Source: Closterium sp. NIES-65 (taxonomy: Eukaryota; Streptophyta; Zygnematophyceae; Desmidiales; Closteriaceae). From it: a stretch of 64,000 nucleotides of DNA. Where the stretch lies: contig CANXME010002304.1 of the NCBI GenBank assembly GCA_948144175.1, positions 186,001-250,000 of the forward strand, written 5' to 3'. Shown piece after piece: positions 12,367 through 58,439 of this stretch; position 1 is the first letter of the stretch; the number at the start of each line of letters is the position of its first letter. The position numbers and the translations under genes are program-made. A model generated the notes under the pieces. That model made no database searches and was not told the origin of the DNA. It worked only from the letters and a program-made list of their open reading frames with translations.

Positions 12367-12369
12367 TGA

Positions 12370-12900: not shown

Positions 12901-12939
12901 GTGTGGAATGATACAAGTTATTGATATGATGACAATAGG

Positions 12940-13875: not shown

Positions 13876-14560
13876 TCATGGAGGGGTTTTCACTCGCTTC
13901 TCGTTATTATCACTCTTGTTGTCCACTTTCTGCATCCTAGTACCATGGTCCTCTGTTATTATCTATTGTTTTTAAACCTTCAAGGTTGAGATGTTGTATT
14001 GTCTTGGGGGAAGAAGCAATGAGCTGGTGTGGTGATAGGGCACAGACACCAAGCAGGTTGGAATCAGCAGCCCCTCCCTTCCCTCCTGCTTGATGTTTCT
14101 CCACATGATATATGATTCTATTTACGGTAAACAAAGCAACAAGCCAGTCCACAACCTATTTACAGTACAATCATACCCATTGTTAAGATTCCTAAACATG
14201 TCAATCTTGCGACGGTATCTCTTGGTGATCAACATGCCGCATGTATCTCCGCGCTTCACACTGTACAATCGCTTGGTTGAACATGTATTGCCAGATAACG
14301 GCCGGCCGTCAACACTAGCCACACAAATCTGTGAGTCAACCATCAGTGAGGAACAGGATGGAAGGGGAAGAAAAATAAACTGCATTGAATAACCTTCACA
14401 CACAGAGGCAGAGACAGAGACAGAGGCAAGACATCGACAGCGGCACCAGACACAGGCACAGGCACAGGCACAAGCACAGGTACTATTTGCAGCGTATAGC
14501 GTATAACCTCCTTCCACTCCACCCCACACACAGACCTTCCCGACTCACCCTTCTCATCAT

Positions 14561-14730
14561 ATTGCCCTGCAGGGGGCTGTAGGGCAGCAGCGAGTCGCAC
14601 AAGAGGTCAAGATTCAACTGGAAGAAGCGCATCGGACTTCTTGCTCCTCCCTCAGCCCACAACTCACACCCGCAACCGCTCGACTCTCACCCTCCCAGCC
14701 CAACTCACCCTTCTCATCATGTTGCCCTGC
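14561..14730 (-). repeat. duplicated LysM half-exon, single 160-bp unit (copy A)
   Basis: One extra copy of the end of the LysM3 exon (FFQLN, CDSLLPYSPLQGNMMRR on the minus strand, followed by GTGAGT) lies in the intron. Copy B has four such units. It keeps a donor site and an upstream AG. Confidence 0.65.
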
Positions 14731-15174
14731 AGGGGGCTGTGCGGCAGCAGCGAGTCGCACGAGAGGCCGGGGTTCATCTGGAAGAAGCGCGTGGGGGAGG
14801 CGATGGCAAACGCCCGCCACAGCTGCTGGCAGGTCTGCGGGCCCTGGAGGACCGTCACGAGCACACCTACGCTCGTGTAGTTGGCTAGAGGCGGAGGAGG
14901 AGGGGGTGGTTGAGGGCTGGGTGAGGTTGTGGGCGGGGTTTGTGTCACGGCTGGGGTGATTTGGGCCTGGAGCTTGCATGATATGCGGGTCATTCCCTCT
15001 TCTAGCCACGTCTGGTTGAGGGATACACAGAGGAGCTGGGAAGGAGGGAGGGAGGAGAATGGGGGAGAGGGGGGAGAAGGGGGAGAAGAGGGGGAGTGGG
15101 GAGAGGAATGTGTGAAATGATGTGAGATCGGGTTCTGAGACTTTGGAGAACAAACTACCCTAACAACCTGTCAT

Positions 15175-15380
15175 TGCAGCAGCTTCTGTTACCAGCGCAC
15201 CTGCATTCTTGTCAGCCATCTACACTCACCTTCACCCACCTACACCCACCTCGACCCACCTACGCTCACCAACACCCACCTACACCCCCCGAGACCCACC
15301 AACACATACCTGCAACCACAAGCACTCACCTGCACCTGCATCCACACTCACGTGCCCTCACCTAACTCACTTGCACCCAT
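15175..15380 (+). repeat. CACCCACCTA-type microsatellite
   Basis: Degenerate repeats of CACC, CACCTA and CACCCACC run through an intron of the LysM gene. The same tract occurs in copy B at 35496-35700. Confidence 0.6.
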
Positions 15381-15492
15381 CTGCACCGATGCTCACCTGG
15401 CCGGGTCTGGGCCCATCAGAGCAGGTGAGGGCGGGGTTGAGCGGCTGTATCTGCGTGGAGAAGAGGGCGTTGAGTGAGTCACACGTGTCACC

Positions 15493-15855
15493 CTGCACAC
15501 GCATGTCAGGTATAGGAGGAGTGGAAGAGGAAGCGTGGTTACTGGAAGGATTGAGTTGAGTGGCTGTAACTGCGTGGAGAAGAGGGCGTTGCGTGAGTCA
15601 CACGTGTCACCCTGCACACGCATGTCAGGTATAGGAGGAGTGGAAGAGGAAGCGTGGTTACTGGAAGGATTGAGTTGAGTGGCTGTATCTGCGTGGAGAA
15701 GAGGGCGTTGAGTGAGTCACACGTGTCGCCCTGCACACACATGTCAGGTATAGGAGGAGTGGAAGAGGAAGCGTGGTTACTGGAAGGATTGAGTTGAGTG
15801 GCTGTATCTGCGTGGAGAAGAGGGCGTTGCGTGAGTCACGTGTCACCCTGCCGGC
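15493..15855 (-). repeat. 119-bp tandem repeat carrying LysM2a pseudo-exons (copy A)
   Basis: Three to four 119-bp units each contain the first half of the LysM2 exon (GDTCDS.NALFSTQ on the minus strand), preceded by a CAG acceptor. In the extra units the exon runs into CTCAATCCTTCCAG and loses the donor. The unit nearest the upstream exon has lost two bases. Unit number appears the same in copy B. Confidence 0.75.
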
Positions 15856-17032
15856 ACACAGGGAAATAGGCGAGTGAGTGTCTGGGAAAGAGACGAGGGG
15901 GTTTGAAGGGAGAAGGCACGTGGAGGGAGAAGGCACGTGGAGGGAAGGGGCAGATGGAGGAAGTGGGAAATGCAAACACAGGTGGCGATTCAGAGTGAGC
16001 AGTGAAGCGGGGTTAAGTTTTGAGATTAGGCTCAAAGGCGCTTACATAAACACACTGGGGTTTACACAAACGCACTGGCACTTGGATAAGCGCACTGGAA
16101 CTTGGAATAAGGCACTGGAAACTACTTCAACACACCGGCACTTACATAATTAGCAGTGTACATGGCAGTGCATTGGGAGAAAGCCCGGCTGGTGACGTTA
16201 ACAAGAGTGCCTACAGGGATGGGCGCTCGGCACTGGAACCCCTGCAGTCAGAACAAGGAGACATAGAGGAGAGGATTGGTCAGAACATGGGTATCTGACA
16301 GAAAAGAAACACTAAACAGGCAAGACGGGAAGGGGGGTATGGGTTTGGACGCTCTGCTGTTACAAGGAGAGATTCGAACGAGGCAGGCCGAATGGGTGGT
16401 GGGAAGAATGAGCGGAAAGTGAGGAGCAGTGAGAGAAAGTGAGGGGGGGTGGGTGGAAGCGAGGGGAATTGAGTTGAAGTGAGGGGCAGAGAGGGGAAGT
16501 GAGAGAAACTGAAGGGCAATGTGTGGCGATGAGGGGAAGTGTGGCTGTGCCGTGACCAGAAAGGGGAAATATTGAGCTTTCAGACGGACCTTGTTTTGGC
16601 TCCAGAATTCCGCTTGGGAGAGCCCATAGGTGTTGAGTTGAGGATGAGAGAGCATGTGATGTGATGTGATGCGATGCCACACAATGTGCTGCGAGATGAT
16701 TGTGCTGTGAGATGAATGTGCTGAGCTGAACTAAACACAGCCCCTTTAACCAAAGCCCACCAAAGCCCTCCTGAGCTTGTTTTGGTTGAAGAAGTCTGCT
16801 TGGGTGAGCCCATAATTGTTGAGGATGAGCGGGCATGGGACATGGAATGTCCTGACCCCAATCAATCTACAGCTTGAACCTTCCTTCAGTCCAATGTCAG
16901 ACCTTGTTTTGGCTGAAGAAGTCTGCTTGGGTGAGCCCGTAGGTGTTGAGGATGAGCGCGCATGTGAGGCCGTAGGGCGACAGGAAGGTGGGCATTCGAG
17001 TCTCAGCCAATCGCACTGCATGCACGGGGGGT

Positions 17033-17095
17033 AGGCATGCACGGGGTAGGCATGCATGGGGTAGGCATGCATGGGGTAGGCATGCATGGGGTAAT
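17033..17095 (+). repeat. 15-bp tandem repeat GGCATGCATGGGGTA, about 4-5 units
   Basis: Short perfect repeats just upstream (gene sense) of the LysM1a acceptor. Copy B has a similar run at 37346-37415. Confidence 0.8.
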
Positions 17096-17144
17096 ATAAG
17101 TCCACGTGATGAGCCCATAAGAAGTAAACACAGGAGACACGAGG

Positions 17145-17365
17145 TCCATGTGATGTGATGAGAGCCATGACGATAAGAGCTATCGGATGGGCCATGTGAT
17201 AGAAGTAGCGTTTTGAAATGTCTCAAAATACGAGGTGCATGTGATGAGAGCCATGACGATACGAGCTATCGGATGGGCCATGTGATAGAAGTAGCGTTTT
17301 GAAATGTCTCAAAATACGAGGTGCATGTGATGAGAGCCATGACGATAAGAGCCATCGGATGGGCT
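17145..17365 (+). repeat. 84-90-bp tandem repeat, three units (two in copy B)
   Basis: The unit contains GAGAGCCATGACGATA, ATCGGATGGGCCATGTGAT and TTTTGAAATGTCTCAAAATA. Copy A has one more unit than copy B, accounting for the 74-base change in offset together with small indels. Confidence 0.75.
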
Positions 17366-17984
17366 GAGATAGAACAGGCACACATGTGAGAGAGGGGCAT
17401 GTGAGAGAGGGGCATGTGAGAGTTGGGCGTATGACAGTGGGGCGTGTGAGAGCGGTGACGTGTGAGAGCGGTGACGTGTGAGAGCGGTGACGTGTGAGGG
17501 GTGTGTGTGAGAAGAGGGGGTAGGCGAGGGGTCAGAGGCATGAGCTGAAAATCAAACCTTGTTTAAGACCATCTGACCATGTGGTACGCACAATGGTAAC
17601 AGCGGGCAGCGCCTTTGGGGTAAAAGTAGAAGGGGAAGTAGGGCGAGGGGCAGAGGCAGGAGTAGGTGCCATCTATGTCATCAATGCACACCCCCGGGGC
17701 ACACGGGTTGCGGGGGAACTGGCGACATGTGAAGGAATCTGGTTTAGGGAGGGCGAGGGAAGGGGAAAGACAATCGGGGAAGCAGAGTGGGAAGAGAGCA
17801 AGAGTGAGTGAGCAGCAGACTAGGACACCATTGATGCACATCCCAAAGGGCACATGGGATAAAGGTAGAGTTTTGAGACGTCTCACAACTCTACTTATAT
17901 CAAGTGCGTGAGCAGCAGACTAGGATACCATTGATGCACATCCCATGTGCCCCTGGGATGTGCATGACCAATTGGGCTTGCCTC

Positions 17985-18180
17985 ACTACCAAATGCTCAC
18001 CCACCACACTCTGCCTCTCACCCACCATGCTCCACCTCTAACCTACCGCACTCCACCTCTCACCTACTGCACTCCACCTCTCACCTACTGCACTCCACTT
18101 CTCACCTACTGCACTCCACCTCTCACCTACCACACTCCACCTCTCACCCACCTACCGCTCTCCGCCTCTTGCCTACCTCA
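17985..18180 (+). repeat. 21-bp tandem repeat CTCTCACCTACTGCACTCCAC, about 8 units
   Basis: The repeat fills the intron between the EGF1 and EGF2 exons and recurs in copy B at 38232-38430. The words are C/A-rich and variants change the CTGC core. Confidence 0.75.
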
Positions 18181-19824
18181 GTCCACGGCTCACCAGGGAA
18201 GCAGGAGGGCAGGCCGGCAAGGTGGGAGGGTTGGAAGGAGGGGAGCTTCAAGGGGCACTTGCAGGAGGGCACGAGGATAGACGGGTCCCACGGGGCACGT
18301 GCCTTGGTGCATGCACCCGTGCCACAGGGCTGCACGGGAGAGGCCTTGCAGGGGTCGGTGTCTGTTGGGGGAGCGGGGGGAAGGGGGAAGGGAGGGGGGA
18401 GGAGGATGGGAAGGGGGAGTGTGCGGAGGTATGAGGCAGGAGGAGAGAGAGGTCCAGGTATGAGACAGCAAATGCCTTGAAGCATGCAACCATGGAACAG
18501 AGGAGCACTGGAGAGGCGTTGCAGGGGATACGCGGGGGTTCGTGGGGTTACAATAACGAAAATCCTCCCTCCCCTCTTCCTACCTCTTCAGAGCAGGCAC
18601 GTGGCTTGCTACCCCTCCCCCTCCTTCCCTCCCCCCCAGCTCCCCCCCTTCCCCCTCCCTGCCCGTGAATCGGAAGGCCCAGGAGGAGAGGGTGACAGGG
18701 GCAGGGCATGTGGCTTGCTACCCCTAAGCCCTTAACGATAAACTCGAAACCCTAAATCCTGGCTTGCTACCCCTCCCCTCTTTCCCTCCCCCCATCTCGA
18801 CCCATTCCCCTCCCCCCTACCTGTGAATCGGAAGGTCCAGGAGGAGAGGGCGACGGGGGAAGGCAGGCGGCCAGCTGCCCGAACGATGGCGACCATAGGT
18901 CCGTTGCACTGCTGCTGTCACTGCTGCTGCTGCTGCCACTTGTGGTGCTGGTGCTGTTACTGCTGTTGCTGCTGCTGCCGCTACCACTGCCGCCGCTGCT
19001 GCTTGTGCTTGTGTCAGGGCCCCCAGTGAGAGCAGCACAGAGGTCAATAGAGACTTTCATGCTGCCTACCAGAACAGGGGGTTGGTACCATCGGATCAGC
19101 ATCTCCTTGCTTCTCCCGTTATAGTCAACCCTCATCTGCAACACCTCCTCTGCCTCCACCACATTTGACACCTCCTCCTCGAAAATCGAAGTCATGTTGA
19201 AATCGGTGTTAACGCCTATGTGATAAGCATTTGGATCGTCAGTTTCCGGGTTTGTTACAGCCTGTGGGTGCCATAGCACAGCTACACTCCGCGCGCCGTC
19301 CGGCCAGCTGCCGTTAGTGAGTCGCGAGGATGGGTCCCGGCCGTACCCCATATAAGCCCCGCCTAGGCCCACGCTCGCATGTGTGCTTATAACGAATGCG
19401 AGTCCATGGGAAGCGGATACATTTATGGAAAAGCCGTATGTGAAGGTGAAAGAGCGAGCCATGCAGATGGGGGGTTCGGTTGCTGTGGGTTGGGGAGGGG
19501 AGGAGGAAGGAGAGGAATGGGGGGAGCTGCGGGGACGACGAGGAGGAGGAGGAGGAGGAGGAGGGAAGGGAGGGGAGGAGGAGTAGAGGAGGGGGAGACG
19601 GCGAGGGAAGTAGATGGCTCCAGGGGCGGGATCGTCTGATTGGCCACTGGATGATGCCACGTCAGCAGCGACCGAGAGATCAGCGGCAAAGAATCGCTTC
19701 CTGGTGCTGCCACGTGTCAGCAGGGGAGTGGCTGGCGTGATGTAGGGGAAGGAGAACGAGTCTGCCGCCCAAAACGGAAGCTGATCCTCCGCTGCTGGGG
19801 TTGGCATGGTATGGGGGCGGGGGC

Positions 19825-20458: not shown

Positions 20459-20511
<53 letters not shown>

Positions 20512-20531
20512 GCAGCAGCGGCAGCAGCAGC

Positions 20532-20576
<45 letters not shown>

Positions 20577-21219
20577 TCCAGCTGCTCCTCCTCTCCCTTT
20601 CCTCCCTGCAGCCGCCCCCCTCCCCACGCCTGCAGCAGCAGCCGCGCTTGCTGCTGCGATCTCCAGCTGTCGTATCCTCTCCCCCACCGTCCCTCTCACC
20701 CTGCCTTGCCCCATGCCCGCACCTCCTCCTCTCCCTCACCCTCCCGCCCTCCCACCCTCTCTCTTCCGCCTCGTTCTGCCTGGGGTCATCACAACCCCCG
20801 AGGTAAGGCCAGTATTTCCGCTCCCTATAACGAGGACAACGGTTTCCCCTGCGCCCATCTCCTCTTCTCCTTCTGTGCTTTCGAAGGTCACCCCCAGCCG
20901 TCTCTCCCCTCCACCATCTCCCTCCCCATCTGTATCCATCTCAACCGCATCAGAAAGAAGCGTGGCCGCTCCAAACGCCTGCCTTCCCTTCCCCGTTGCT
21001 CGTTTCGCTCTGCTTCTGCTGTTTCCCTCGCCATTGCCATTTCTCCTGCTCCCCCCGCTGCTGTCCAACCCGTTATTGTCACACCCTGATGCAAAACCCT
21101 CCCTGCTCGGCTCACCACCCATTAAAACGCCACAAGCACCGCATTCAACTCCTTCGTCTTCCCCGCTGCTTGAGCCCCAGCCCCCCTGCAACTCGCGCCT
21201 TCATTTCCCAAACACAGCA
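19825..21219 (-). pseudogene. truncated copy of the long disordered ORF (copy A)
   Basis: The minus strand matches the C-terminal half of the 875-residue ORF at 40417-43044 (GTVGERIRQLEIAAASA, GWSSGGEGEGKRSRGKG). The upstream half is absent because the duplication ends at 21219. The remaining frame is cut by a TGA at 20736-20738, where copy B has CGA. A long polyalanine expansion separates two parts of the frame. No promoter or start is evident. Confidence 0.75.
20458..20576 (+). repeat. CAG/GCA trinucleotide expansion
   Basis: About 38 CAG-type triplets with a few CGG and GTA interruptions. On the minus strand they read as polyalanine inside the truncated ORF. The same site in copy B (about 41200-41220) has only about five triplets. 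Confidence 0.9.
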
Positions 21220-31503: not shown

Positions 31504-32328
31504 CGTTTCCGCGCTGCAGGCGGAAGAACGGCGAGTTTCCGCGCATCAGCAGGGGCAGCGACAAGAGCACGTCGAGCCATGCAGCCATGCACCACCGCGC
31601 TGCAGGCAGGCGGAAGTTCGGAGCGCTTCCGCACTGCAAGCGGAAGGTCGGAGCGCTTCCGCGCTGCAGGCGGAAGGTCGGAGCGCTTCCGCGCTGCAGG
31701 CGGAAGGTCGGAGCGCTTCCGCGCTGCAGGCGGAAGGTCGGAGCGCTTCCGCGCTGCAGGCGGAAGGTCGGAGCGCTTCCGCGCTGCAGGCGGAAGGTCG
31801 GAGCGCTTCCGCGGTGCAGGCGGAAGGTCGGAGCGCTTCCGCGGTGCAGGCGGAAGGTCGGAGCGCTTCCGCGGTGCAGGCGGAAGGTCGGAGCGCTTCC
31901 GCGCTGCAGGCGGAAGGTCGGAGCGCTTCCGCGCTGCAGGCGGAAGGTCGGAGCGCTTCCGCGCTGCAGGCGGAAGGTCGGAGCGCTTCCGCGCTGCAGG
32001 CGGAAGGTCGGAGCGCTTCCGCGCTGCAGGCGGAAGGTCGGAGCGCTTCCGCGGTGCAGGCGGAAGGTCGGAGCGCTTCCGCGGTGCAGGCGGAAGGTCG
32101 GAGCGCTTCCGTGCTGCAGGCGGCAGGTCGGAGCGCTTCCGCGCTGCAGGCGGAAGGTCGGAGCGCTTCCGCGCTGCAGGCGGAAGGTCGGAGCGCTTCC
32201 GCGCTGCAGGCGGAAGGTCGGAGCGCTTCCGCGGTGCAGGCGGAAGGTCGGAGCGCTTCCGCGGTGCAGGCGGAAGGTCGGAGCGCTTCCGCGCTGCAGG
32301 CGGAAGGTCGGAGCGCTTTCGCGCTTCA
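31504..32328 (+). repeat. 30-bp tandem array of copy B (about 24 regular units)
   Basis: After irregular first units and a unique insert (31540-31600) the array is made of the GCGCTTCC-type unit. It includes the same odd GGCAGG unit near 32120 and the same right edge (CGCTTTCGCGCTTCATGAGC) as copy A. The SacI-type block of copy A is missing. Confidence 0.92.
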
Positions 32329-32899
32329 TGAGCGTGAGCCCCTTTCCAAACATCTCGAGAATTTCTGTTTACCCCCTTCCCCCCGCCACTGAGTTTCTGT
32401 CCCCTCGCGCCATCCCCCTCCCTTCCCCTTCCCCTCTTCCGCAACTACTCCTTTTCCACCCTGATCCGCGCCCCTCCCCGCCATTTCCGCATTTCCCTCA
32501 TCCCCTCTCTCTCCTCTATGCCCTCTCCCCTCTCTCTCCCGGCTCTTTATCTCTTTCCCCTACCCTCCGCTTCCCTCCCCCCTTCCCACCCCGATCACTC
32601 TCGCTCCCCTCTCCGTTTCCAGCCCTCGCTTTCGTTTCCTCTCCTTCGCGCACCTTGTGGTAACTCTGTAACGCATTGATCTCGCCCATTCTTTTTCCGT
32701 TCCCGTTCTCCTTGTGCATCATGTTCCCCTTTCCGCTTTTCCCCCTGCCGCCTCCCCTTGCTCCCCCGTAGCGTAGCGTAACCCCTATTCCCGTTTCCTC
32801 TCTCCCTGTTTCTCCTCTCCCTGTTTTCTCCTATGGACGCCATGACGATATTCCCTTACAATGTGTGGAATGATACAAGTTATTGATATGATGACAATA

Positions 32900-33065
32900 G
32901 GCTCGGCACAGGCACGTGTGAGGCTCGGCACAGCCAGGCGAGGGTTGGCACAGCCAGGCGTGGTGAGAGGCTCGGCACAGCCAGGCGTGGTGAGAGGCTC
33001 GGCACAGCTGGGTGAGAGGCTCGGCACAGCTGGGTGAGAGGCTCAGCACAGCCAGGTGAGGGTCG
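32900..33065 (+). repeat. 23-24-bp tandem repeat of copy B, about 7 units
   Basis: Same unit as at 12940-13215 (GTGAGAGGCTCGGCACAG core), with fewer copies. Confidence 0.8.
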
Positions 33066-33604
33066 GCTCGCTGCTGCTTGAACTCTCCCATTCACCTCTC
33101 TGGTGCCAGCCTCGAAGATGCGATGATAAAGATAGAATAATAGGAGTCATTAGGAGTTTTTGATATGTATGCTTGTATGTAACATCACACATGAGCTAGT
33201 CTGGCCAGGTCCGTCCTGGCCAGGCTCGGGGAGGTAGGGTCGGTTCGGCCTAGGTCCGGGAGGGGGGGAGGGGGAGGAGGTCTGATTGGGCCAAATACAG
33301 ATACAGATACAGTGACAGTGACCGAAACAGGGACAAATACAGACACAGGGACAAAAACGGAAGGCAAACAGGGACAGAAGCGAGGTCAGGGACAGAGCGT
33401 AAATGGAAGACAAACAGGGAGAGAAGCAGCAGGGACAGGGAGAGGGACACACCAACAGCCGACAGAAACAGGAATGGAAGACAATGAGAGAGAAGCAGGG
33501 ACAGGGAGACGGATGGAAAGAGGCCAGATGTGAGGCCTACATGGCCTTTTGGCAGGTGGTGCCTGTGTGTGACTCGGCCAGGCCAGCCAAGCGATTTGAG
33601 GGGG

Positions 33605-33722
33605 CTGTGTGGGGGGGGGGGGGGAGGGCTGTGTTGGGGGGGGGTGTGTATGGGGGGCTGTGTGGGGGGGCTGTGAGGGGGGCTGTGAGGGGCGTTGGGG
33701 GGTAGGGGGCCCTTCGGGGGGG
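33605..33722 (+). other. G-run tract with G-quadruplex potential (copy B)
   Basis: Many runs of five or more G within 120 bases, nearly identical to copy A at 13762-13875. Confidence 0.7.
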
Positions 33723-33968
33723 TCATGGAGGGGTTTTCACTCGCTTCTCGTTATTATCACTCTTGTTGTCCACTTTCTGCATCCTAGTACCATGGTCCTC
33801 TGTTATTATCTATTGTTTTTAAACCTTCAAGGTTGAGATGTTGTATTGTCTTGGGGGAAGAAGCAATGAGCTGGTGTGGTGATAGGGCACAGACACCAAG
33901 CAGGTTGGAATCAGCAGCCCCTCCCTTCCCTCCTGCTTGATGTTTCTCCACATGATATATGATTCTAT

Positions 33969-36900
33969 TTACGGTAAACAAAGCAACAAGCCAGTCCACA
34001 ACCTATTTACAGTACAATCATACCCATTGTTAAGATTCCTAAACATGTCAATCTTGCGACGGTATCTCTTGGTGATCAACATGCCGCATGTATCTCCGCG
34101 CTTCACACTGTACAATCGCTTGGTTGAACATGTATTGCCAGATAACGGCCGGCCGTCAACACTAGCCACACAAATCTGTGAGTCAACCATCAGTGAGGAA
34201 CAGGATGGAAGGGGAAGAAAAATAAACTGCATTGAATAACCTTCACACACAGAGGCAGAGACAGAGACAGAGGCAAGACATCGACAGCGGCACCAGACAC
34301 AGGCACAGGCACAAGCACAGGTACTATTTGCAGCGTATAGCGTATAACCTCCTTCCACTCCACCCCACACACAGACCTTCCCGACTCACCCTTCTCATCA
34401 TATTGCCCTGCAGGGGGCTGTAGGGCAGCAGCGAGTCGCACAAGAGGTCAAGATTCAACTGGAAGAAGCGCATCGGACTTCTTGCTCCTCCCTCAGCCCA
34501 CAACTCACACCCGCAACCGCTCGACTCTCACCCTCCCAGCCCAACTCACCCTTCTCATCATGTTGCCCTGCAGGGGGCTGTAGGGCAGCAGCGAGTCGCA
34601 CAAGAGGTCAAGATTCAACTGGAAGAAGCGCATCGGACTTCTTGCTCCTCCCTCAGCCCACAACTCACACCCGCAACCGCTCGACTCTCACCCTCCCAGC
34701 CCAACTCACCCTTCTCATCATGTTGCCCTGCAGGGGGCTGTGCGGCAGCAGCGAGTCGCACAAGAGGTCAAGATTCAACTGGAAGAAGCGCATCGGACTT
34801 CTTGCTCCTCCCTCAGCCCACAACTCACACCCGCAACCGCTCGACTCTCACCCTCCCAGCCCAACTCACCCTTCTCATCATGTTGCCCTGCAGGGGGCTG
34901 TAGGGCAGCAGCGAGTCGCACAAGAGGTCAAGATTCAACTGGAAGAAGCGCATCGGACTTCTTGCTCCTCCCTCAGCCCACAACTCACACCCGCAACCGC
35001 TCGACTCTCACCCTCCCAGCCCAACTCACCCTTCTCATCATGTTGCCCTGCAGGGGGCTGTGCGGCAGCAGCGAGTCGCACGAGAGGCCGGGGTTCATCT
35101 GGAAGAAGCGCGTGGGGGAGGCGATGGCAAACGCCCGCCACAGCTGCTGGCAGGTCTGCGGGCCCTGGAGGACCGTCACGAGCACACCTACGCTCGTGTA
35201 GTTGGCTAGAGGCGGAGGAGGAGGGGGTGGTTGAGGGCTGGGTGAGGTTGTGGGCGGGGTTTGTGTCACGGCTGGGGTGATTTGGGCCTGGAGCTTGCAT
35301 GATATGCGGGTCATTCCCTCTTCTAGCCACGTCTGGTTGAGGGATACACAGAGGAGCTGGGAAGGAGGGAGGGAGGAGAATGGGGGAGAGGGGGGAGAAG
35401 GGGGAGAAGAGGGGGAGTGGGGAGAGGAATGTGTGAAATGATGTGAGATCGGGTTCTGAGACTTTGGAGAACAAACTACCCTAACAACCTGTCATTGCAG
35501 CAGCTTCTGTTACCAGCGCACCTGCATTCTTGTCAGCCATCTACACTCACCTTCACCCACCTACACCCACCTCGACCCACCTACGCTCACCAACACCCAC
35601 CTACACCCCCCGAGACCCACCAACACATACCTGCAACCACAAGCACTCACCTGCACCTGCATCCACACTCACGTGCCCTCACCTAACTCACTTGCACCCA
35701 TCTGCACCGATGCTCACCTGGCCGGGTCTGGGCCCATCAGAGCAGGTGAGGGCGGGGTTGAGCGGCTGTATCTGCGTGGAGAAGAGGGCGTTGAGTGAGT
35801 CACACGTGTCACCCTGCACACGCATGTCAGGTATAGGAGGAGTGGAAGAGGAAGCGTGGTTACTGGAAGGATTGAGTTGAGTGGCTGTAACTGCGTGGAG
35901 AAGAGGGCGTTGCGTGAGTCACACGTGTCACCCTGCACACGCATGTCAGGTATAGGAGGAGTGGAAGAGGAAGCGTGGTTACTGGAAGGATTGAGTTGAG
36001 TGGCTGTATCTGCGTGGAGAAGAGGGCGTTGAGTGAGTCACACGTGTCGCCCTGCACACACATGTCAGGTATAGGAGGAGTGGAAGAGGAAGCGTGGTTA
36101 CTGGAAGGATTGAGTTGAGTGGCTGTATCTGCGTGGAGAAGAGGGCGTTGCGTGAGTCACGTGTCACCCTGCCGGCACACAGGGAAATAGGCGAGTGAGT
36201 GTCTGGGAAAGAGACGAGGGGGTTTGAAGGGAGAAGGCACGTGGAGGGAGAAGGCACGTGGAGGGAAGGGGCAGATGGAGGAAGTGGGAAATGCAAACAC
36301 AGGTGGCGATTCAGAGTGAGCAGTGAAGCGGGGTTAAGTTTTGAGATTAGGCTCAAAGGCGCTTACATAAACACACTGGGGTTTACACAAACGCACTGGC
36401 ACTTGGATAAGCGCACTGGAACTTGGAATAAGGCACTGGAAACTACTTCAACACACCGGCACTTACATAATTAGCAGTGTACATGGCAGTGCATTGGGAG
36501 AAAGCCCGGCTGGTGACGTTAACAAGAGTGCCTACAGGGATGGGCGCTCGGCACTGGAACCCCTGCAGTCAGAACAAGGAGACATAGAGGAGAGGATTGG
36601 TCAGAACATGGGTATCTGACAGAAAAGAAACACTAAACAGGCAAGACGGGAAGGGGGGTATGGGTTTGGACGCTCTGCTGTTACAAGGAGAGATTCGAAC
36701 GAGGCAGGCCGAATGGGTGGTGGGAAGAATGAGCGGAAAGTGAGGAGCAGTGAGAGAAAGTGAGGGGGGGTGGGTGGAAGCGAGGGGAATTGAGTTGAAG
36801 TGAGGGGCAGAGAGGGGAAGTGAGAGAAACTGAAGGGCAATGTGTGGCGATGAGGGGAAGTGTGGCTGTGCCGTGACCAGAAAGGGGAAATATTGAGCTT

Positions 36901-39900
36901 TCAGACGGACCTTGTTTTGGCTCCAGAATTCCGCTTGGGAGAGCCCATAGGTGTTGAGTTGAGGATGAGAGAGCATGTGATGTGATGTGATGCGATGCCA
37001 CACAATGTGCTGCGAGATGAATGTGCTGTGAGATGAATGTGCTGAGCTGAACTAAACACAGCCCCTTTAACCAAAGCCCACCAAAGCCCTCCTGAGCTTG
37101 TTTTGGTTGAAGAAGTCTGCTTGGGTGAGCCCATAATTGTTGAGGATGAGCGGGCATGGGACATGGAATGTCCTGACCCCAATCAATCTACAGCTTGAAC
37201 CTTCCTTCAGTCCAATGTCAGACCTTGTTTTGGCTGAAGAAGTCTGCTTGGGTGAGCCCGTAGGTGTTGAGGATGAGCGCGCATGTGAGGCCGTAGGGCG
37301 ACAGGAAGGTGGGCATTCGAGTCTCAGCCAATCGCACTGCATGCACGGGGGGTAGGCATGCACGGGGTAGGCATGCATGGGGTAGGCATGCATGGGGTAG
37401 GCATGCATGGGGTAATAACGAGAACGATATAAGTCCACGTGATGAGCCCATAAGAAGTAAACACAGGAGACACGAGGTCCATGTGATGTGATGAGAGCCA
37501 TGACGATAAGAGCTATCGGATGGGCCATGTGATAGAAGTAGCGTTTTGAAATGTCTCAAAATACGAGGTGCATGTGATGAGAGCCATGACGATAAGAGCC
37601 ATCGGATGGGCTGAGATAGAACAGGCACACATGTGAGAGAGGGGCATGTGAGAGAGGGGCATGTGAGAGTTGGGCGTATGACAGTGGGGCGTGTGAGAGC
37701 GGTGACGTGTGAGAGCGGTGACGTGTGAGAGCGGTGACGTGTGAGGGGTGTGTGTGAGAAGAGGGGGTAGGCGAGGGGTCAGAGGCATGAGCTGAAAATC
37801 AAACCTTGTTTAAGACCATCTGACCATGTGGTACGCACAATGGTAACAGCGGGCAGCGCCTTTGGGGTAAAAGTAGAAGGGGAAGTAGGGCGAGGGGCAG
37901 AGGCAGGAGTAGGTGCCATCTATGTCATCAATGCACACCCCCGGGGCACACGGGTTGCGGGGGAACTGGCGACATGTGAAGGAATCTGGTTTAGGGAGGG
38001 CGAGGGAAGGGGAAAGACAATCGGGGAAGCAGAGTGGGAAGAGAGCAAGAGTGAGTGAGCAGCAGACTAGGACACCATTGATGCACATCCCAAAGGGCAC
38101 ATGGGATAAAGGTAGAGTTTTGAGACGTCTCACAACTCTACTTATATCAAGTGCGTGAGCAGCAGACTAGGATACCATTGATGCACATCCCATGTGCCCC
38201 TGGGATGTGCATGACCAATTGGGCTTGCCTCACTACCAAATGCTCACCCACCACACTCTGCCTCTCACCCACCATGCTCCACCTCTAACCTACCGCACTC
38301 CACCTCTCACCTACTGCACTCCACCTCTCACCTACTGCACTCCACTTCTCACCTACTGCACTCCACCTCTCACCTACCACACTCCACCTCTCACCCACCT
38401 ACCGCTCTCCGCCTCTTGCCTACCTCAGTCCACGGCTCACCAGGGAAGCAGGAGGGCAGGCCGGCAAGGTGGGAGGGTTGGAAGGAGGGGAGCTTCAAGG
38501 GGCACTTGCAGGAGGGCACGAGGATAGACGGGTCCCACGGGGCACGTGCCTTGGTGCACACGCCCGTGCCACAGGGCTGCACGGGAGAGGCCTTGCAGGG
38601 GTCGGTGTCTGTTGGGGGAGCGGGGGGAAGGGGGAAGGGAGGGGGGGGAGGAGGATGGGAAGGGGGAGTGTGCGGAGGTATGAGGCAGGAGGAGAGAGAG
38701 GTCCAGGTATGAGACAGCAAATGCCTTGAAGCATGCAACCATGGAACAGAGGAGCACTGGAGAGGCGTTGCAGGGGATACGCGGGGGTTCGTGGGGTTAC
38801 AATAACGAAAATCCTCCCTCCCCTCTTCCTACCTCTTCAGAGCAGGCACGTGGCTTGCTACCCCTCCCCTTCCTTCCCTCCCCCCCAGCTCCCCCCCTTC
38901 CCCTCTCCCTACCTGTGAATCGGAAGGTCCAGGAGGAGAGGGTGACAGGGGCAGGGCATGTGGCTTGCTACCCCTAAGCCCTTAACGATAAACTCGAAAC
39001 CCTAAATCCTGGCTTGCTACCCCTAAGCCCTTAACAATAAACTCGAAACCCTAAATCCTGGCTTGCTACCCCTAAGCCCTTAACGATAAACTCGAAACCC
39101 TAAATCCTGGCTTGCTACCCCTAAGCCCTTAACGATAAACTCGAAACCCGAAATCCTGGCTTGCTACCCCTAAGCCCTTAACGATAAACTCGAAACCCTA
39201 AATCCTGGCTTGCTACCCCTAAGCCCTTAACGATAAACTCGAAACCCTAAATCCTGGCTTGCTACCCCTAAGCCCTTAACGATAAACTCGAAACCCTAAA
39301 TCCTGGCTTGCTACCCCTAAGCCCTTAACGATAAACTCGAAACCCTAAATCCTGGCTTGCTACCCCTAAGCCCTTAACGATAAACTCGAAACCCTAAATC
39401 CTGGCTTGCTACCCCTAAGCCCTTAACGATAAACTCGAAACCCTAAATCCTGGCTTGCTACCCCTCCCCTCTTTCCCTCCCCCCCATCTCGACCCATTCC
39501 CCTCCCCCCTACCTGTGAATCGGAAGGTCCAGGAGGAGAGGGCGACGGGGGAAGGCAGGCGGCCAGGGGGGGGAGGGAGGGCAGCGCTGGTGAACCCAAC
39601 GACCAGCTGCCCGAACGATGGCGACCATAGGTCCGTTGCACTGCTGCTGTCACTGCTGCTGCTGCTGCCACTTGTGGTGGTGGTGCTGGTGTTTCTGCTG
39701 TTGCTGCTGCTGCCGCTACCAGTGCCGCCGCTGCTGCTTGTGCTTGTGTCAGGGCCCCCAGTGAGAGCAGCACAGAGGTCAAGGGAGACTTTCATGCTGC
39801 CTACTAGAACAGGGGGTTGGTACCATCTGATCAGCATCTCCTTGCTCCTCCCGTGATAGTCAACCCTCATCTGCAACACCTCCTCTGCCTCCACCACATT

Positions 39901-40544
39901 TGACACCTCCTCCTCGAAAATCGAAGTCATGTTGAAATCGGTGTTAACGCCTATGTGATAAGCATTTGGATCATCAGTTTCCGGGTTTGTTACAGCCTGT
40001 GGGTGCCATAGCACAGCTACACTCCGCGCGCCGTCTGGCCAGCTGCCGTTAGTGAGTCGCGAGGATGGGTCCCGGCCGTACCCCATATAAGCCCCGGCTA
40101 GGCCCACACTCGCATGTGTGCTTATAACGAATGCGAGCCCTTGAGACGGGGAAACATTCATGGAAAAGCCATAGTTGAAGGTGAACGAACGAGCCATGCA
40201 GATTGGGGGTTCGGTTGCTGTGGTTTGAGGAGGGGAGGGGGGAAGGAAGGAGAGGAATGGGGGGAGCTGTGAGGACGAGGAGGAGGAGGAGGAGGAGGGA
40301 AGGGAGGGGAGGAGGAGGAGTAGAGGAGGGGGAGACGGCGAGGGAAGTAGATGGCTCCAGGGGCGGGATCGTCTGATTGGCCACTGGATGATGCCACGTC
40401 AGCAGCGACGGAGAGATCAGCGGCAAAGAATCGCTTCCTGGTGCTGCCACGTGTCAGAAGGGGAGTGGCTGGCGTGATGTAGGGGAAGGAGAACGAGTCT
40501 GCCGCCCAAAACGGAAGCTGATCCTCTGCTGCTGGGGTTGGCAT
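33969..40544 (-). CDS. putative secreted L-type lectin - EGF - EGF - LysM x4 protein, copy B
   Basis: Exons in gene order, joined by GT-AG sites: lectin 40544-39513, EGF1 38608-38441, EGF2 37985-37839, LysM1a 37336-37224, LysM1b 36562-36467, LysM2a 35813-35718, LysM2b/3a 35356-35030, LysM3b/4 34175-33969 (stop TAA). Phases agree at every join. The lectin part shows SFSFPYITP, GLAFVIST, NPETDDPNAYHIGVN, LQMRVDY and a final VVGFTSA...SSWTFRFT. EGF modules are Cys-rich (DPC, NPCAPGVCIDDIDGTYSCLCP). LysM signatures include LILNTYGLTQADFFSQNK, GDTCDSLNALFSTQ, FFQMNPGLSCDSLL and YSVKRGDTCGMLITKRY. Such domains bind glycans, LysM usually chitin or peptidoglycan oligomers. No membrane segment or kinase follows. 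The lectin exon has an indel relative to copy A in its Pro-rich insert (about 40200-40330), so the first ATG at 40544 is not in frame with the core; start and signal peptide are unresolved. Confidence 0.72.
34401..35041 (-). repeat. 160-bp tandem repeat of LysM3 half-exon, four extra units
   Basis: The word TTGCCCTGCAGGGGGCTG recurs at about 34403, 34563, 34723, 34883 and 35043. On the minus strand each unit holds TTCCAG, then LNLDLLCDSLLPYSPLQGNM, then GTGAGT: a LysM half with its own acceptor-like AG and a good donor. The units are nearly identical to one another and differ from the true exon at several codons, so they amplified recently from one diverged copy. Confidence 0.82.
35814..36172 (-). 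repeat. 119-bp tandem repeat carrying LysM2a pseudo-exons (copy B)
   Basis: Start-like ATGs of the unit fall at 35825, 35944 and 36063, exactly 119 bases apart. Each unit repeats the acceptor and the first part of LysM2 (GDTCDS(L/R)NALFSTQ) but lacks the donor. Confidence 0.8.
36905..37190 (-). repeat. two diverged LysM1a pseudo-exons
   Basis: Besides the exon at 37224-37336, the minus strand has LILNNYGLTQADFFNQNK near 37095-37150 (donor changed to AAGCTC) and LNTYGLSQAEFWSQNK near 36910-36960 (GTCCGT follows). They resemble the real exon end but have lost the first half. The same set is present in copy A at 16584-16870. Confidence 0.65.
38971..39460 (+). repeat. 49-bp tandem repeat with telomere-like CCCTAAA, ten units
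   Basis: Ten units read CCCCTAAGCCCTTAACGATA, AACTCGAAACCCTAAATCCT, GGCTTGCTA. Each carries the plant-type telomere heptamer CCCTAAA once. Units are almost identical (one CCCGAAA and one ACAATA change). The array lies in the intron between the lectin and EGF1 exons and is bounded by two copies of the lectin exon end (38911-38950 and 39510-39545). Copy A has one unit at about 18717-18766. Confidence 0.92.
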
Positions 40545-42236
40545 GGTATGGGGGCGGGGGCAGTGGGGGGAGGGTTAGGCATGAGTAAATGTTCAACCTT
40601 AGGCTAGGATGTGGACCGTGGGACACTGGAACTATGGCAGGTAGGTTCCATGGAGGTTCGCTCCTCCTTTTCACCACCCACCAAAACGGCAGCAAATTCG
40701 TTGCAGAAGGGGGTTGGCATTGTATGCTCCAGCATTCCACCCCCACTGATTCCTTCTCACCACCACCACCGCCCTTCCCCCTGCTCCTCTTGCCCTCCCC
40801 CTCTCCTCCCGACGACCATCCTGCTCCAGACAACCGCCTTGCTCCCATACCACTCCCCTTCTTCCCTCCCTTTCTCCCCCTTGCCGCCCCGCGTGTACCA
40901 GCACCACGGACGGTAGCAACACTCACAACAGCACCCTCAAGAACCGCCCGGTTGTCTGCTCCTCCCACAGTCAGCACAGGTACATCCCCCAATCCATCAC
41001 CCGAGCCCTTTCCCAGTCCATCCTCCCCAATACACCCCCCCTCTCCCTCCCCATCCCCGTCCCCATCCTCCCTAATTTCGTGGTCTTTCCGCTTCCCACT
41101 GCCAATCCCTGCTCCTCCTGTCTCCCCAGCAGCAAGCATCGCTGCTTTTCTCCCCTTGGGGCCCCACTCTCTACGAGCATTCACCCTGCCACCAGCACCA
41201 CCACCAGCAGCAGCAGCAACTCCTGCCGCTCCTCCTCTCCCTTTCCTCCCGACCATCGCCCCCCTCCCCACGCCTGCAGCAGCAGCCGCGCTTGCTGCTG
41301 CTATCTCCAGCTGTCGTATCCTCTCCCCCACCGTCCCTCTCACCCTACCTTGCCCCATGCCCGCACCTCCTCCTCTCCCTCGCCCCCCCGTCCTCCCACC
41401 CTCTCTCTTCCGCCTCGTTCTGCCTGGAGTCATCACAACCCCTGAGGTAAGGCCAGTATTTCCGCTCCCTATAACGAGGACAACGGTTTCCCCTGCGCCC
41501 ATCTCCTCTTCTCCTTCTGTGCTTTCGAAGGTCACCCCCAGCCGTCTCTCCCCTCCATGTCCCTCCCCATCTGTATCCATCTCAACCGCATCAGAAAGAA
41601 GCGTGGCCGTTCCAAACGCCTGCCTTCCCTTCCCCGTTGCTCGTTTCCCTCTGCTGCTGCTGTTTCCCTCGCCATTGCCATTTCTCCTGCTCCCCCCGCT
41701 GCAGTCCAACCCGTTATTGTCACACCCTGATGCAAAACCCTCCCTGCTCGGCTCACCACCCATTAAAACGCCACAAGCACCGCATTCCACTCCTTCGTCT
41801 TCCCCGCTTGCTTCAGCCCCAGCCTCCCTGCAACTCGCACCGTCATTTCCCAAACACTCCTCATCCAGACGTCTCGAAGCCTCTCCCAACCCGCACCCAT
41901 CGTCTCCTCCTCTGCTCGTGCTCGTGCTCGAGCTCGTCGGCACATGACAGGGTGAGTTCGGCAGTCCCTGCAACGCCTGCTTCCCCTGCTGCCGCTTCTG
42001 CACCTGGCTCTTCATAGCATGGGGGGAATTACCCAAGTTTGACCCTGCGGGTTGCCCTTTCCGTCTCGGGGACGCTCTGTCTGCGGGACCGAGAACGGAC
42101 CCCGTTCTAAGCGACCCATCTCTCTTCATTCTACCGTTCGCAGCGTTAGGGTTACCACTACTACCCAATGCGTCTGAGGAATCTGTGTCTGTAGTGGCGC
42201 CGCTGCTGACGCTACGCCGGACAGCCTTCACGTTCG

Positions 42237-42287
<51 letters not shown>

Positions 42288-43044
42288 TGCCGCTGACGGT
42301 GCTCTTGCTGCTCTTGCTGGCCTTACTCGCTTTTCGAACCGGCCCCGCTGCTCCGGCGGTTCTTACTCCTCCGGTCTTGGACTGTTCGAAGAGAGACCTC
42401 AGCTGCCGAACGCTCACGTTAGACGACAAGCCGGGACTGCTTGGGCGGCGAGGGCTGGCGCGTAGCGCAGCAAGGTCCTGGGGTTGCGGCCCTTTGATTC
42501 GCTCCGTGTGCTGCCGTAGTTGCTCGGCTGTCAGCTCTGCGGCTTGCCCTGTTGCCGGCCGACCTGCCACTACCTTCTGTGGTTCCGCTCTAGACTGCTT
42601 CCCTTCTTCCTGCTGACCGTTCGCTTCCCTATCCTGCCGTATCTGCTCGGCAGTCAGCAATGAAGCTTCCTCTGTCGTTGACCAAACTCCTGACACCGGC
42701 CGATCAGGCACAACCTTTTCTCGTTCTGCTCTAGACTGCTCCTCCTCCAGCTGCTGCTCGTTCGCTCGCTCCTTTGCCTTCCCTTTCTCCTGCGGTTTCC
42801 GTTTCGCCGAGGACGAGCGAGGGCGGGGAAGCTTCTTTTTCTCCGCTTTAACTGCCTGACCCGTATCCCGTCCCTGGCCAGACGACTGCTCGAGAGTCGT
42901 TTCCCGAGCCTGGTCAGAATCCGTTACCGTCTCAGAATCCGTCACCTGCTGGGATTCCGGTATCTGTTTATGAACTACGGCTCCTATCCGCTCGTCCATC
43001 GCAAAACGCTCGCATTGCCTTTCGGCAGTTCGACTCATGTGCAC
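40417..43044 (-). CDS. unrecognised long disordered protein ORF (875 residues)
   Basis: An uninterrupted 2.6-kb frame on the minus strand starts MHMSRTAERQCERF at 43044. The first third is Glu/Gln/Lys-rich and contains the two related motifs SLLTAEQIRQDRE and AELTAEQLRQHTE. Then come SSNVSVRQLRSLFEQSK (short helix), a polyglycine run, a Ser/Arg-rich stretch, and a Gly/Arg-rich C-terminal half with GTVGERIRQLEIAAASA. I know no family. The last ~40 residues overlap the lectin exon in another frame, so the real 3' end is probably an intron upstream of that point. It may be an independent gene or first exon of the lectin gene; I see no splice that proves the latter. Copy A preserves only the C-terminal half. 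Confidence 0.5.
42240..42291 (+). repeat. GCC trinucleotide run (polyglycine on minus strand)
   Basis: About 17 consecutive GCC triplets inside the long minus-strand ORF, encoding polyglycine near residue 265. Confidence 0.9.
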
Positions 43045-45638: not shown

Positions 45639-47279
45639 TCAAGAGGAGAGCAAGTGAGGCAAGACAGGCACAAGACCCAGCTGGGTGCAGAAGCGCTGAT
45701 GGTCACAAGGCGCAAGTGCCTTGGTGAACACATCAGCAGTGTTGGCCTCAGAGGCCACGTACGCAAGTCGCAACTGACCACGCTGCTGCAACTCACGAGC
45801 AAGGAAGTAGCGGAGAGCAATGTGCTTCGTTCTGTGCTCCAAGCGCTGCTCTCGACACAAGGCCAGCATAGCCTTGTTGTCTACGTACAGCACTGGAGGA
45901 GAACGAGGCGGCTCTCCAAGGTCAGTCAGCAGGTAGGTGAGCCAGCGAAGCTCCTGTGCAGCCATGGCTCCGGCGTAGATCTCAGCCTCACAACTGGAGC
46001 CGAGAACCGAAGACGAGCGAGTAGACCGCCACGAGACAGAGCCGGAACCAAGGCTGAAGGTGTAACCCTGTGACGACCGCTGCGTAGCCTGGTCGTCAGC
46101 CCAAGAAGCGTCCGCGTGGCCGGTAAGGACCACTGGACTCCGCCCTCCAAGCACTAGCCCCATGCCTGACGTACTGCACAGGTAGCGCAATACCCTCTTC
46201 GCTGCAGCCATGTGCTCCGGTCTGTGTCTCCCAGGAGCAACATAGCGTGCAAGAATGCTCAGAGGGTATGCAAGGTCAGGTCGTGTGCAGGTCATCAGGT
46301 ACATGAGGCAGCCAACAAGCTCTGCATACGGACCACTCGACTCTACGGACTCATCCGAAGGCAGAGCTGAGAGTGAGTGGCGAGTAGGCAGAGGAGTGGC
46401 CTGAGGCGAGGAGTACGTGAAGCCGAAGCGCTGAAGGACCTGCTGCACCATGTGTGACTGAGTCAAGGTAATGGTGCGGCGTGCTCTGTCCCGAGTGATC
46501 TGCAAGCCAAGGTAGCTGCGCAGTTCACCCAGGTCTGTGCACGTGTGTCTCTTCAGCAGCTCGGACTTCACGTAGGCGAGTCCAGCAGTGTCCGCTGTGG
46601 CAAAGACCAAGTCGTCGACGTACACGAGGATGTAGAACGGCGGCAGGGAAGTGTCGGTGCGAAGAAACAGCGACGGGTCAGCAGTAGAAGGAGCAAACCG
46701 AAGAGCCGCAAGCGTAGTCCTCAGTGTGTCGTGCCACTCACGCGGTGCCTGGCGGAGACCGTAGACTGGCCGTCTGAGGCTCCACTGGGTGCCAGGAGGG
46801 AAAGTCCCAGTGAAGCCAGGTGGACGGCGAAGCCAGATCTCCTCGTGCAGGCTACCCTGCAAGAACGCAGTGCTGAAGTCGAGAGAGTGAAGCTCGTAGT
46901 CGCGCTGAGCGGCTATGTGCAGCAGCACCCGAAGAGTAGTCATCTTCGGGGTGGGAGAGAAGGTCTGAAAGTAGTCAACTCCCTGCCGCTGACTGAAGCC
47001 ACGAGCAACGTACCGTGCCTTGAAGACAGGTGGAGAGCCCGGCGGCCGCTTCACCCTGAAGATCCACATGCCACTGACGATGTTCGCCCCAGGAGGGGGA
47101 ACCGCGTCAACGTAGGTGCCTGTGGACTTCCAGGAAGCCATCTCTGCATCCATGGCTGCCTGCCACTGAGAGGAGTAGGGGCCCTCTACGGCCTCCGCGT
47201 AAGAACGCGGAGTCGGGATGTCTAGTGCATCCGGGTCTCCCTCAGGGGCAAGCAGTACAGACGCGAGATGAGGTAACAC
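45639..47279 (-). CDS. copia reverse transcriptase - RNase H
   Basis: The 546-residue open frame holds a full RT: YAEAVEGPYSSQWQAAM, MWIFRVKRPPG, ARGFSQRQGVDYFQTFSP, LDFSTAFLQG (first catalytic Asp), VYGLRQAPREWHD and FYILVYVDDLVF. RNase H follows with GHADASWADDQATQ, SSCEAEIYAG and LYVDNKAMLALCRE, ending FTKALAPCDHQRF. It looks enzymatically intact. The first Met is an accident of the deletion junction. Upstream gag coding is in a different frame across the junction, so no Gag-Pol fusion could be made without a shift. Confidence 0.93.
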   Translation of the reverse strand: MLPHLASVLLAPEGDPDALDIPTPRSYAEAVEGPYSSQWQAAMDAEMASWKSTGTYVDAVPPPGANIVSGMWIFRVKRPPGSPPVFKARYVARGFSQRQGVDYFQTFSPTPKMTTLRVLLHIAAQRDYELHSLDFSTAFLQGSLHEEIWLRRPPGFTGTFPPGTQWSLRRPVYGLRQAPREWHDTLRTTLAALRFAPSTADPSLFLRTDTSLPPFYILVYVDDLVFATADTAGLAYVKSELLKRHTCTDLGELRSYLGLQITRDRARRTITLTQSHMVQQVLQRFGFTYSSPQATPLPTRHSLSALPSDESVESSGPYAELVGCLMYLMTCTRPDLAYPLSILARYVAPGRHRPEHMAAAKRVLRYLCSTSGMGLVLGGRSPVVLTGHADASWADDQATQRSSQGYTFSLGSGSVSWRSTRSSSVLGSSCEAEIYAGAMAAQELRWLTYLLTDLGEPPRSPPVLYVDNKAMLALCREQRLEHRTKHIALRYFLARELQQRGQLRLAYVASEANTADVFTKALAPCDHQRFCTQLGLVPVLPHLLSS

Positions 47280-48716
47280 CGGTAACCCTCATTCTCCTCA
47301 CTATAATCCACAACATACATAGCAGTAAGGATAGCATCAAAATCAAGATCAAAGATCGCTACACCAGCCCTGAGAAGCTCATCCCAGCGAGGGATCTCAC
47401 TAGCCCCAGGGAACTGCTGACGCCAAGCGTCCGTCAGGCGGCCAAAGCAGCGCTGGGTGGCGTGGGCACCCCCACATTGCTCACCCGCGCGGTCGCCGGA
47501 ACGAAGAACGTAGGTGCAGGGACCAGTACCCCCACCCCTCTGACGCCCAGCGTACCACTCACGAAGCTGCTGAGGCGAAGGGATGTCCCGTGAGCGCTGC
47601 TGCTGCTGCCGGTGCGAGCGCTGGCCACCACCACCGCCGCTACGCTGCTGGGTACCACCCCGACCAGCTCCACCTCCTCCACCACAACTGCCTCCGCCGC
47701 TGCCGCCTCCACTGCCTCCACCTCCGCCGCCTCCACCTCCGCCGCTGCCTCCACCACCACTGCTGGCACCACCACCACCGTCTCCGCCGCTGCTGCCACC
47801 ACCACCACCACCACCCCCGCCACTAGTCCCGCCGCCACCCCCACTCCCTCCGCAGCCACCACCGCCACCGCCACCGCCCCCCCCCAGCTCCACCCGCGCC
47901 CTTGCCTCCCTTGCCCTTGCTGGAGCGACGTCTCCCACCAGGGGCAGACGCCGCGCCGACCGACTCAAGACCAAGCAGGTCGGCAGCAGCAGCAGAGGCA
48001 ACAGAGGGCAGCAAGGGGGAAGGAGAGCACCCCTCAAAGATGGGGGTGCGAGGGTCACCACGAGAAGCACCTACAGCGACTATGCTCTTCTCCGCTGCAA
48101 GGAGGGCCTTCTCGAGGAGGTCGACGGTGAGAGTGGTGGGACAGACTGCGAGAAAGTGGTCCCTGATGACGCGAAGGGAGTCAGGGAGGCGCGCGACTAC
48201 GTAGTAGAGAGCGATGTACATGGGAGGGGGGTTCCTAGCGCAGAACTCAGCAGGAAGGGCGGCGCGGTAGCGAGTGTCACTAGTGCGGAGGTGCGTAATG
48301 AGGTCAGCGACAGTGGGAAAGGCAGAGAGGTCAGGAAAGAGGTAGGGAAGCATGAGACGGCTCAGTGCAGCAGTGGCAGGGGAGGAGTAGCGCGCAACTA
48401 CAGCGTCGTACAAGGTCCGAGCACTCTTGTACTGACTAAAGTGCGCACGCTCAGAGGTAGGGAGGTGGCGACGCACAGCAAGACGTGCAGCAGCATCGCG
48501 GGTGGCCCACTTAGAGCGGACAGCGGGACCAGCATCAGCAGCAGGAGCAGGAGAGGCGCCAGAGGTGAGGTCAAAGAGAGAAAGGTCATCAGCCCTGTCG
48601 CACTGTAAGAACAGCTGCAGGTCGTCTAGCCAGACCTCAAAATCAATGGCGCGACCCTCAGCGTCAAAAGCTAGGACACTAGGGGTAGCCATGACGACGA
48701 CTGTGAAGCAGTGCAA
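47222..48716 (-). CDS. copia gag with frameshift at a G9 tract
   Basis: The frame from 48716 (more likely start ATG 48692, MATPSVLAFDAEGRAID) matches the retrotransposon Gag capsid family: FEVWLDDLQLFLQCD, SKWATRDAAARLAVRRHLP, ARTLYDAVVARYSSPATAAL, YALYYVVARLPDSL-like and VDLLEKALLAAE. In the Gly-rich linker the run of nine G at 47877-47885 shifts the frame by one. The gag C-terminus then reads on in the other frame to 47222, with SPQQLREWYA and a CCHC-like C-X13-C-X3-H-X4-C cluster (CTYVL...CGGAHATQRCF), ending AILTAMYVVDYSEENEG at the deletion junction with RT. Confidence 0.85.
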
Positions 48717-58358: not shown

Positions 58359-58439
58359 GTAGAAGCAGGAGCAGGACTAGCAGCAGGGAGGCAGGCAGCC
58401 AGGCAAGCCAAAAGGCAGGCAGGCAGGCAAGCAGGCGAC

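Follow-up and report, generated by a model that had tools for sequence, protein, structure and literature searches.

Closterium is a green alga of the sister lineage to land plants, whose receptor kinases carry, among other sugar sensors, LysM domains and L-type lectin domains. The window analysed here, a stretch of 64,000 nucleotides from Closterium sp. NIES-65, holds a minus-strand locus that appears to join both domain types through two EGF-like modules. The locus raises the question of whether this chain is a complete secreted protein, as an earlier sequence-only reading had proposed, or one part of a longer protein, and which function the combination may serve. A soluble protein of the algal sister group with LysM domains, L-type lectins and a tail that also occurs in proteases would make it directly testable what role secreted glycan binders play alongside receptor kinases.

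Domain composition of the window gene

Nine minus-strand segments, from 40544 to 33969, were joined in phase and gave an open frame of 688 residues (Table 1). The predicted protein matched Lectin_legB (PF00139) with 31.8 bits (Pfam curated cut-off 26.3) and LysM (PF01476) in three stretches with 36 bits (cut-off 20.9); relatives reached 34.6-115.8 bits for Lectin_legB. When the modules were scanned in isolation, LysM1, LysM2 and LysM4 scored 14.3, 17.3 and 15.0 bits, each below the cut-off, and LysM3 gave no Pfam match. The Pfam search bore out the lectin and LysM domains of the sequence-only reading; of its EGF-like modules, EGF2 alone scored 18.5 bits against a cut-off of 27 and EGF1 alone was unmatched. 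Both EGF-like modules hold six cysteines in their sequence. The papain domain Peptidase_C1 (PF00112) was absent from the window protein and from the family models scanned.

The numbers of LysM and EGF-like modules were checked by profile-profile comparison of family alignments with hhalign, which included the domains of P0024, a Closterium papain protein described below. LysM3 gave 93.8% with the four P0024 LysMs and 90.0% with LysM1, against only 34.9% and 32.1% with LysM2 and LysM4. EGF1 matched the P0024 EGFs at 88.2% and EGF2 at 75.6%, and EGF2 matched the P0024 EGFs at 95.6%. The alignments of LysM3, EGF1 and EGF2 contained no P0024 row; the matches of LysM1, LysM2 and LysM4 to P0024 (98.6-98.8%) are not independent, because one P0024 row lies inside each of those alignments. 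Four controls with unlike domains gave 0.1-0.7%. The profile comparison supports four predicted LysMs and two predicted EGF-like modules in the window gene, and the order first read on the minus strand, a lectin, two EGFs and four LysMs, holds by frame, Pfam and hhalign. The exons also look constrained, with a dN/dS of 0.34 (dS 0.204, dN 0.070; 596 codons, 19 dropped) between this copy (copy 1) and a paralogue on the same contig.

Table 1. Features of the locus. Positions are those of the window, except for the paralogue, which is given in the coordinates of contig C2006.
Feature	Position	Strand	Basis
Start codon of the sequence-only reading; upstream of the exon (intron) in most homologous models	40542..40544	-	
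L-type lectin 2, copy 1 (exons 1 and 2 of the sequence-only reading)	39513..40531	-	joined frame, Pfam, homologous models
EGF-like module 1 exon	38441..38608	-	frame, hhalign; no Pfam match alone
EGF-like module 2 exon	37839..37985	-	frame, Pfam below cut-off, hhalign
LysM1, first exon	37224..37336	-	
LysM1, second exon, and beginning of LysM2	36467..36562	-	
LysM2 core exon	35718..35813	-	
End of LysM2, Pro-rich linker, LysM3	35030..35356	-	
End of LysM3, LysM4, stop codon	33969..34175	-	
Second copy of the truncated gene (copy 2)	14122..19823	-	homology; linker in frame
Segmental duplicate of about 11430-21215	31606..41857	.	pieces 95.2-99.3% identical
Upstream limit of similarity to the paralogue with the full order, shortly ahead of the lectin 2 exon	40624..40625	.	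megablast
Open frame of 875 codons and low complexity, upstream of copy 1	40420..43044	-	no Pfam match
Paralogue lectin 1	298,162-296,798	-	
Paralogue lectin 2	294,096 to about 292,977	-	
Paralogue EGF1	292,700-292,599	-	
Paralogue EGF2	291,667-291,521	-	
Paralogue LysM1	291,036-290,917 and 282,852-282,754	-	
Paralogue LysM2	281,288-281,190	-	
Paralogue LysM3	279,992-279,654	-	
Paralogue LysM4	279,275-279,021	-	

Several repeats were observed within the gene. A 160-bp tandem repeat (4.6 copies, 34380-35111) takes in part of the LysM3 exon and a 119-bp tandem repeat (3.5 copies, 35757-36172) part of the LysM2 exon; the repeat listing of copy 2 contains the 119-bp array and lacks the 160-bp array. 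Degenerate additional copies of the first LysM1 exon lie in the next intron, at 37189-37097 and 36970-36900. The intron between the lectin and EGF1 holds a 49-bp repeat of 10.3 copies (38961-39465), absent from the copy 2 listing, and AAACCCTAAA inside it resembles the plant telomere motif.

Splice junctions and the first intron

The deposited Closterium models derive from a pipeline that is described, for the six strains of its source paper, as joining Augustus with RNA-seq-based PASA (PMC10407611). Junction recurrence was counted among the models holding the upstream landmark, and the junctions first assigned to the window gene recur there. EGF2/LysM1 was found in 23/26 models, the two halves of LysM1 in 20/22, LysM1/LysM2 in 16/16 and LysM2/LysM3 in 19/22; recurrence was weaker for lectin/EGF1 (8/12), EGF1/EGF2 (12/26) and LysM3/LysM4 (9/16). 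Two deposited NIES-65 proteins cover parts of the window directly, with 394 of the 415 15-mers of P0021 and 410 of the 541 15-mers of P0004 present in it; the unmatched 15-mers are about the expected cost of splice junctions.

The first intron of the sequence-only reading, between 40336 and 40218, is contested. This stretch measures 119 bp in copy 1, and its equivalent in copy 2 measures 117 bp and is in frame. The place is present in ten of the 37 family models: four read through it (P0001, P0002, P0003 and P0016), P0012 splices it as first proposed, three leave at its donor and pass straight to EGF1 (P0013, P0014 and P0017), P0021 reads into it and then stops, and P0027 exits elsewhere. In alignment, the first part of this stretch corresponds to coding residues of lectin 1. 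On balance, a coding Pro/Ser linker that carries a frameshift in copy 1 appears slightly favoured over an intron.

Longer family members and the start of the gene

Homologues were searched by scoring the best 8000, 8000 and 7985 candidates by shared words, and relatives in other algae may therefore be missed. Among the candidates scored, all 24 homologues of one search came from Closterium, as did 37 of the 38 of another, the exception being a PEP-CTERM protein. Eighteen models hold the start of the lectin 2 exon, and 14 of them carry a further L-type lectin, lectin 1, upstream in the same chain; the four that do not are P0001, P0002, P0012 and P0021. This argues against the start at 40544 that was first assigned, and illustrates that, where copy-number variation is rich in a genome, one copy taken singly can give a misleading picture of the start of its gene. 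The lectin 2 exon of copy 1 probably starts at 40531 or 40528. Two adjacent AG acceptors occur at 40528-40533, and the deposited models vary there between AED and AAED.

Landmarks of lectin 1, the lectin 2 start, EGF1 and LysM1 were found in one chain in ten of the 37 family models, from strains Yama58-4, NIES-64, NIES-65 and Naga37s-1. These ten omit much of the lectin 2 core, and lectin 1 landmarks together with the lectin 2 core landmark occurred in none of the deposited family models. The divergent P0016 (31% identity) shows two Lectin_legB stretches; its lectin 2 is whole and its lectin 1 only partial. The longer models carry an additional N-terminal region of about 300 residues, which matched no known family; a jelly-roll carbohydrate module was considered for it and found no support in Pfam or PDB profile searches. 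Taken together, the gene models show the longer predicted members to consist, in order, of the N-terminal region, L-type lectin 1, lectin 2, two EGFs, four LysMs and a stop.

By simple hydropathy, no strongly hydrophobic N-terminus was found in the window model. Hydropathy alone was likewise used for the longer proteins, where P0003 is hydrophobic at residues 21-35 and P0013, P0025 and P0027 are not.

Duplicates and a paralogue on the contig

Copies 1 and 2 have about 10 kb in common, at 95.2-99.3% identity. The Closterium species complex is described as showing extensive copy-number variation (PMC10407611), and the duplication may in part be an assembly artefact. Copy 2 carries a 40-bp deletion near the 3' end of the lectin that shifts the frame. 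Retroelement frames were observed around the duplicated segments, at 1-2613, 5679-8513, 45642-47288 and 55518-58376 (RVT_2/integrase type, and RVT_1 with endonuclease).

The window occupies C2006:186001-250000 on a contig of 298,967 bases. A third copy, the paralogue, is likewise on the minus strand, some 52 kb further along this contig than copy 1, in the flank C2006:250001-298967, and presents lectin 1, lectin 2, EGF, EGF and four LysMs on one strand. It has several frame breaks and therefore shows the order rather than an intact frame. Its front seems to leave the contig end, since only a short match was found upstream of the lectin 1 part. Its C-terminus, LLCLP followed by the stop, is that of the window copy, in agreement with the stop right after LysM4 that had been read from the window. 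Splicing at the GTAAAT of the stop into an extra exon beyond LysM4 was considered and rejected, as the paralogue reads CCTAA at that place and its chain ends there too. Downstream, tblastx gave four weak matches (E 7e-4 to 1e-3, opposite strands), which were taken as low-complexity chance.

A tblastn search of the window with 12 of the 24 homologues detected neither lectin 1 nor the N-terminal region, apart from weak cross-matches of lectin 2. Homology thus marks copy 1 as a duplicate truncated at its 5' side, with the similarity to the paralogue ending just upstream of lectin 2. The description of the locus as a complete secreted protein is therefore unsupported here, given the extra lectin and N-terminal region of the longer models and the truncation of a window copy that, by hydropathy, has no signal peptide.

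Structure comparison and site residues of the lectins

The lectin 1 profile matched legume lectin structures with E values down to 1.8e-12 and the lectin 2 profile with E values down to 1e-4, and the two lectins are homologous to each other (98.4%). Five positions (Glu, Asp, Asp, Asn and His), presumably the metal site of legume lectins, were compared. The lectin 1 alignment keeps Glu, both Asp and His and has Ser in place of Asn, and in the alignment of the window lectin 2 the Glu and the first Asp are lost. AF2 models were poor, with a mean pLDDT of 37.4 for P0003 (22-row alignment) and 36.0 for P0001 (20-row alignment), and the P0001 model was locally confident in part of the lectin only. 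A Foldseek search with this part returned legume-type lectins in all of the best 50 of 432 matches, none with E <= 0.001.

A tail in common with papain proteins

The arrangement of two EGFs followed by several C-terminal LysMs also occurs in a Closterium family of papain (C1A) proteins represented by P0024. The profiles of the two tails match, and the heads differ: the P0024 family has papain in place of the lectins, and P0024 itself also has a Kazal-like match. When the EGF-LysM region of P0024 was searched (best 7985 candidates scored), 29 of the 39 matches carried PF00112 and 28 of the 39 are named as Closterium proteins. Because the EGF-EGF-LysM part is common to both families, it was read as a glycan-targeting tail; its presence behind papain in a related family suggests a predicted targeting tail with exchangeable heads. 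P0073, a partial NIES-64 model of 1354 residues, combines LRR repeats with a legume lectin, papain and LysM, with EGF-like cysteine clusters recognised by eye, and may connect the family with papain heads to the one with lectins.

Comparison with known systems

The Lectin_legB fold is shared with L-type lectin receptor kinases and soluble legume lectins. In contrast to these, the Closterium lectins stand in tandem and are followed by EGF and LysM domains; no Pkinase match was found in the 13 of 37 family models scanned, and the chain terminates after LysM4. Plant LysM receptor kinases and LysM proteins have the LysM array in common with the Closterium chain, which is probably secreted and, unlike the kinases, has neither a kinase nor a membrane stretch and bears lectin and EGF domains in front.

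Among algae, Chlamydomonas is reported to combine LysM with another lectin type, F-type or C-type, in one protein (PMC6362431). These proteins are similar in pairing LysM with a second lectin type and differ in fold, and the available part of that source makes no mention of LysM paired with a legume lectin. The same source describes C1A peptidases with lectin domains in green algae, outside the vascular plants. In Zygnema, of the same algal class, Lectin_legB is reported in 26 combination architectures (PMC11096116), so that legume lectins are joined to other domains there as well; the available part mentions no combination with LysM. Within the open-licence papers searched, no description of a legume lectin with LysM in Closterium was found. 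The predicted lectin-EGF-EGF-LysM4 chain brings known modules together in a new combination with a predicted function; the sequence-only reading had likewise not recognised the domain order from described proteins.

Functional reading and alternative explanations

LysM domains are described as binding GlcNAc and its derivatives and polymers (PMC12355970). Judged by its domains, the full-length family is best read as a predicted multivalent soluble glycan binder. The full-length protein would be secreted, with the EGF-EGF-LysM tail docking on a GlcNAc-containing polymer, such as microbial chitin or peptidoglycan or a component of the wall, and a second glycan being bound by the lectin head; lectin 1 would be a likelier sugar binder than lectin 2. 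The window copies, apparently without a signal peptide, may yield no normal product. Overall, we consider it reasonably likely that the locus corresponds to the 3' portion of a gene family in Closterium with lectin 1, lectin 2, EGF, EGF and four LysMs, present here as a 5'-truncated duplicate, and that the full-length member is a secreted multivalent glycan binder whose EGF-EGF-LysM part serves as a targeting tail.

A reading that falls just short of an even chance is that both window copies are dead fragments of a segmental duplication, and that only full-length paralogues elsewhere work. The 5' truncation of both copies, the deletion in copy 2, the retroelement frames on either side and, if the linker is coding, the frameshift in copy 1 are consistent with it. 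However, the remaining exons of copy 1 are all open, and parts of this copy are covered by P0004 and P0021, NIES-65 models from a pipeline that uses RNA-seq hints.

The target of the full-length protein may also be the alga itself. A role in its own wall, mucilage or mating rather than in defence, through the cross-linking or sensing of self glycans, is possible, at somewhat less than an even chance. The two lectin heads would suit it, and concanavalin A is reported to disrupt the release of fibrous material for zygote formation in the same species complex (PMC4942458). Against this, the GlcNAc specificity described for LysM (PMC12355970) fits a microbial target, and the tail is common to proteases.

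It is improbable that the gene is complete as first drawn, a secreted lectin-EGF-EGF-LysM4 protein of nine exons beginning at 40544. Its frame is open in phase, P0002 begins at the equivalent Met and P0012 splices the first intron identically, but the N-terminus is not hydrophobic, 14 of the 18 models extend upstream into lectin 1 and copy 2 is open across that intron. Equally improbable is a chimeric gene in which the upstream 875-codon frame was captured as a new front. P0021, which splices part of that frame onto the start of the lectin 2 exon, is a model of this kind and speaks for it, but it continues into the linker and stops, and the frame is of low complexity, with neither a Pfam match nor a signal peptide.

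Beyond the preferred reading of a secreted glycan binder, we propose, as a tentative and rather doubtful extension, that the EGF-EGF-LysM part is an interchangeable targeting module in Closterium, placed on papain, on twin legume lectins or, as in P0073, on LRR, lectin and papain. It would belong to a secreted toolkit recognising microbial glycans, spread by segmental duplication, with new heads captured at the lectin intron. If true, the toolkit would use, in the sister lineage, domains that land plants mounted on receptor kinases. As separate observations, proteins of the P0024 type are numerous in Closterium, P0068, a P0024-type protein from a metagenome source, adds a hevein-type chitin-binding domain, and the source genome holds at least 141 LysM matches (150 of 397 candidates scored).
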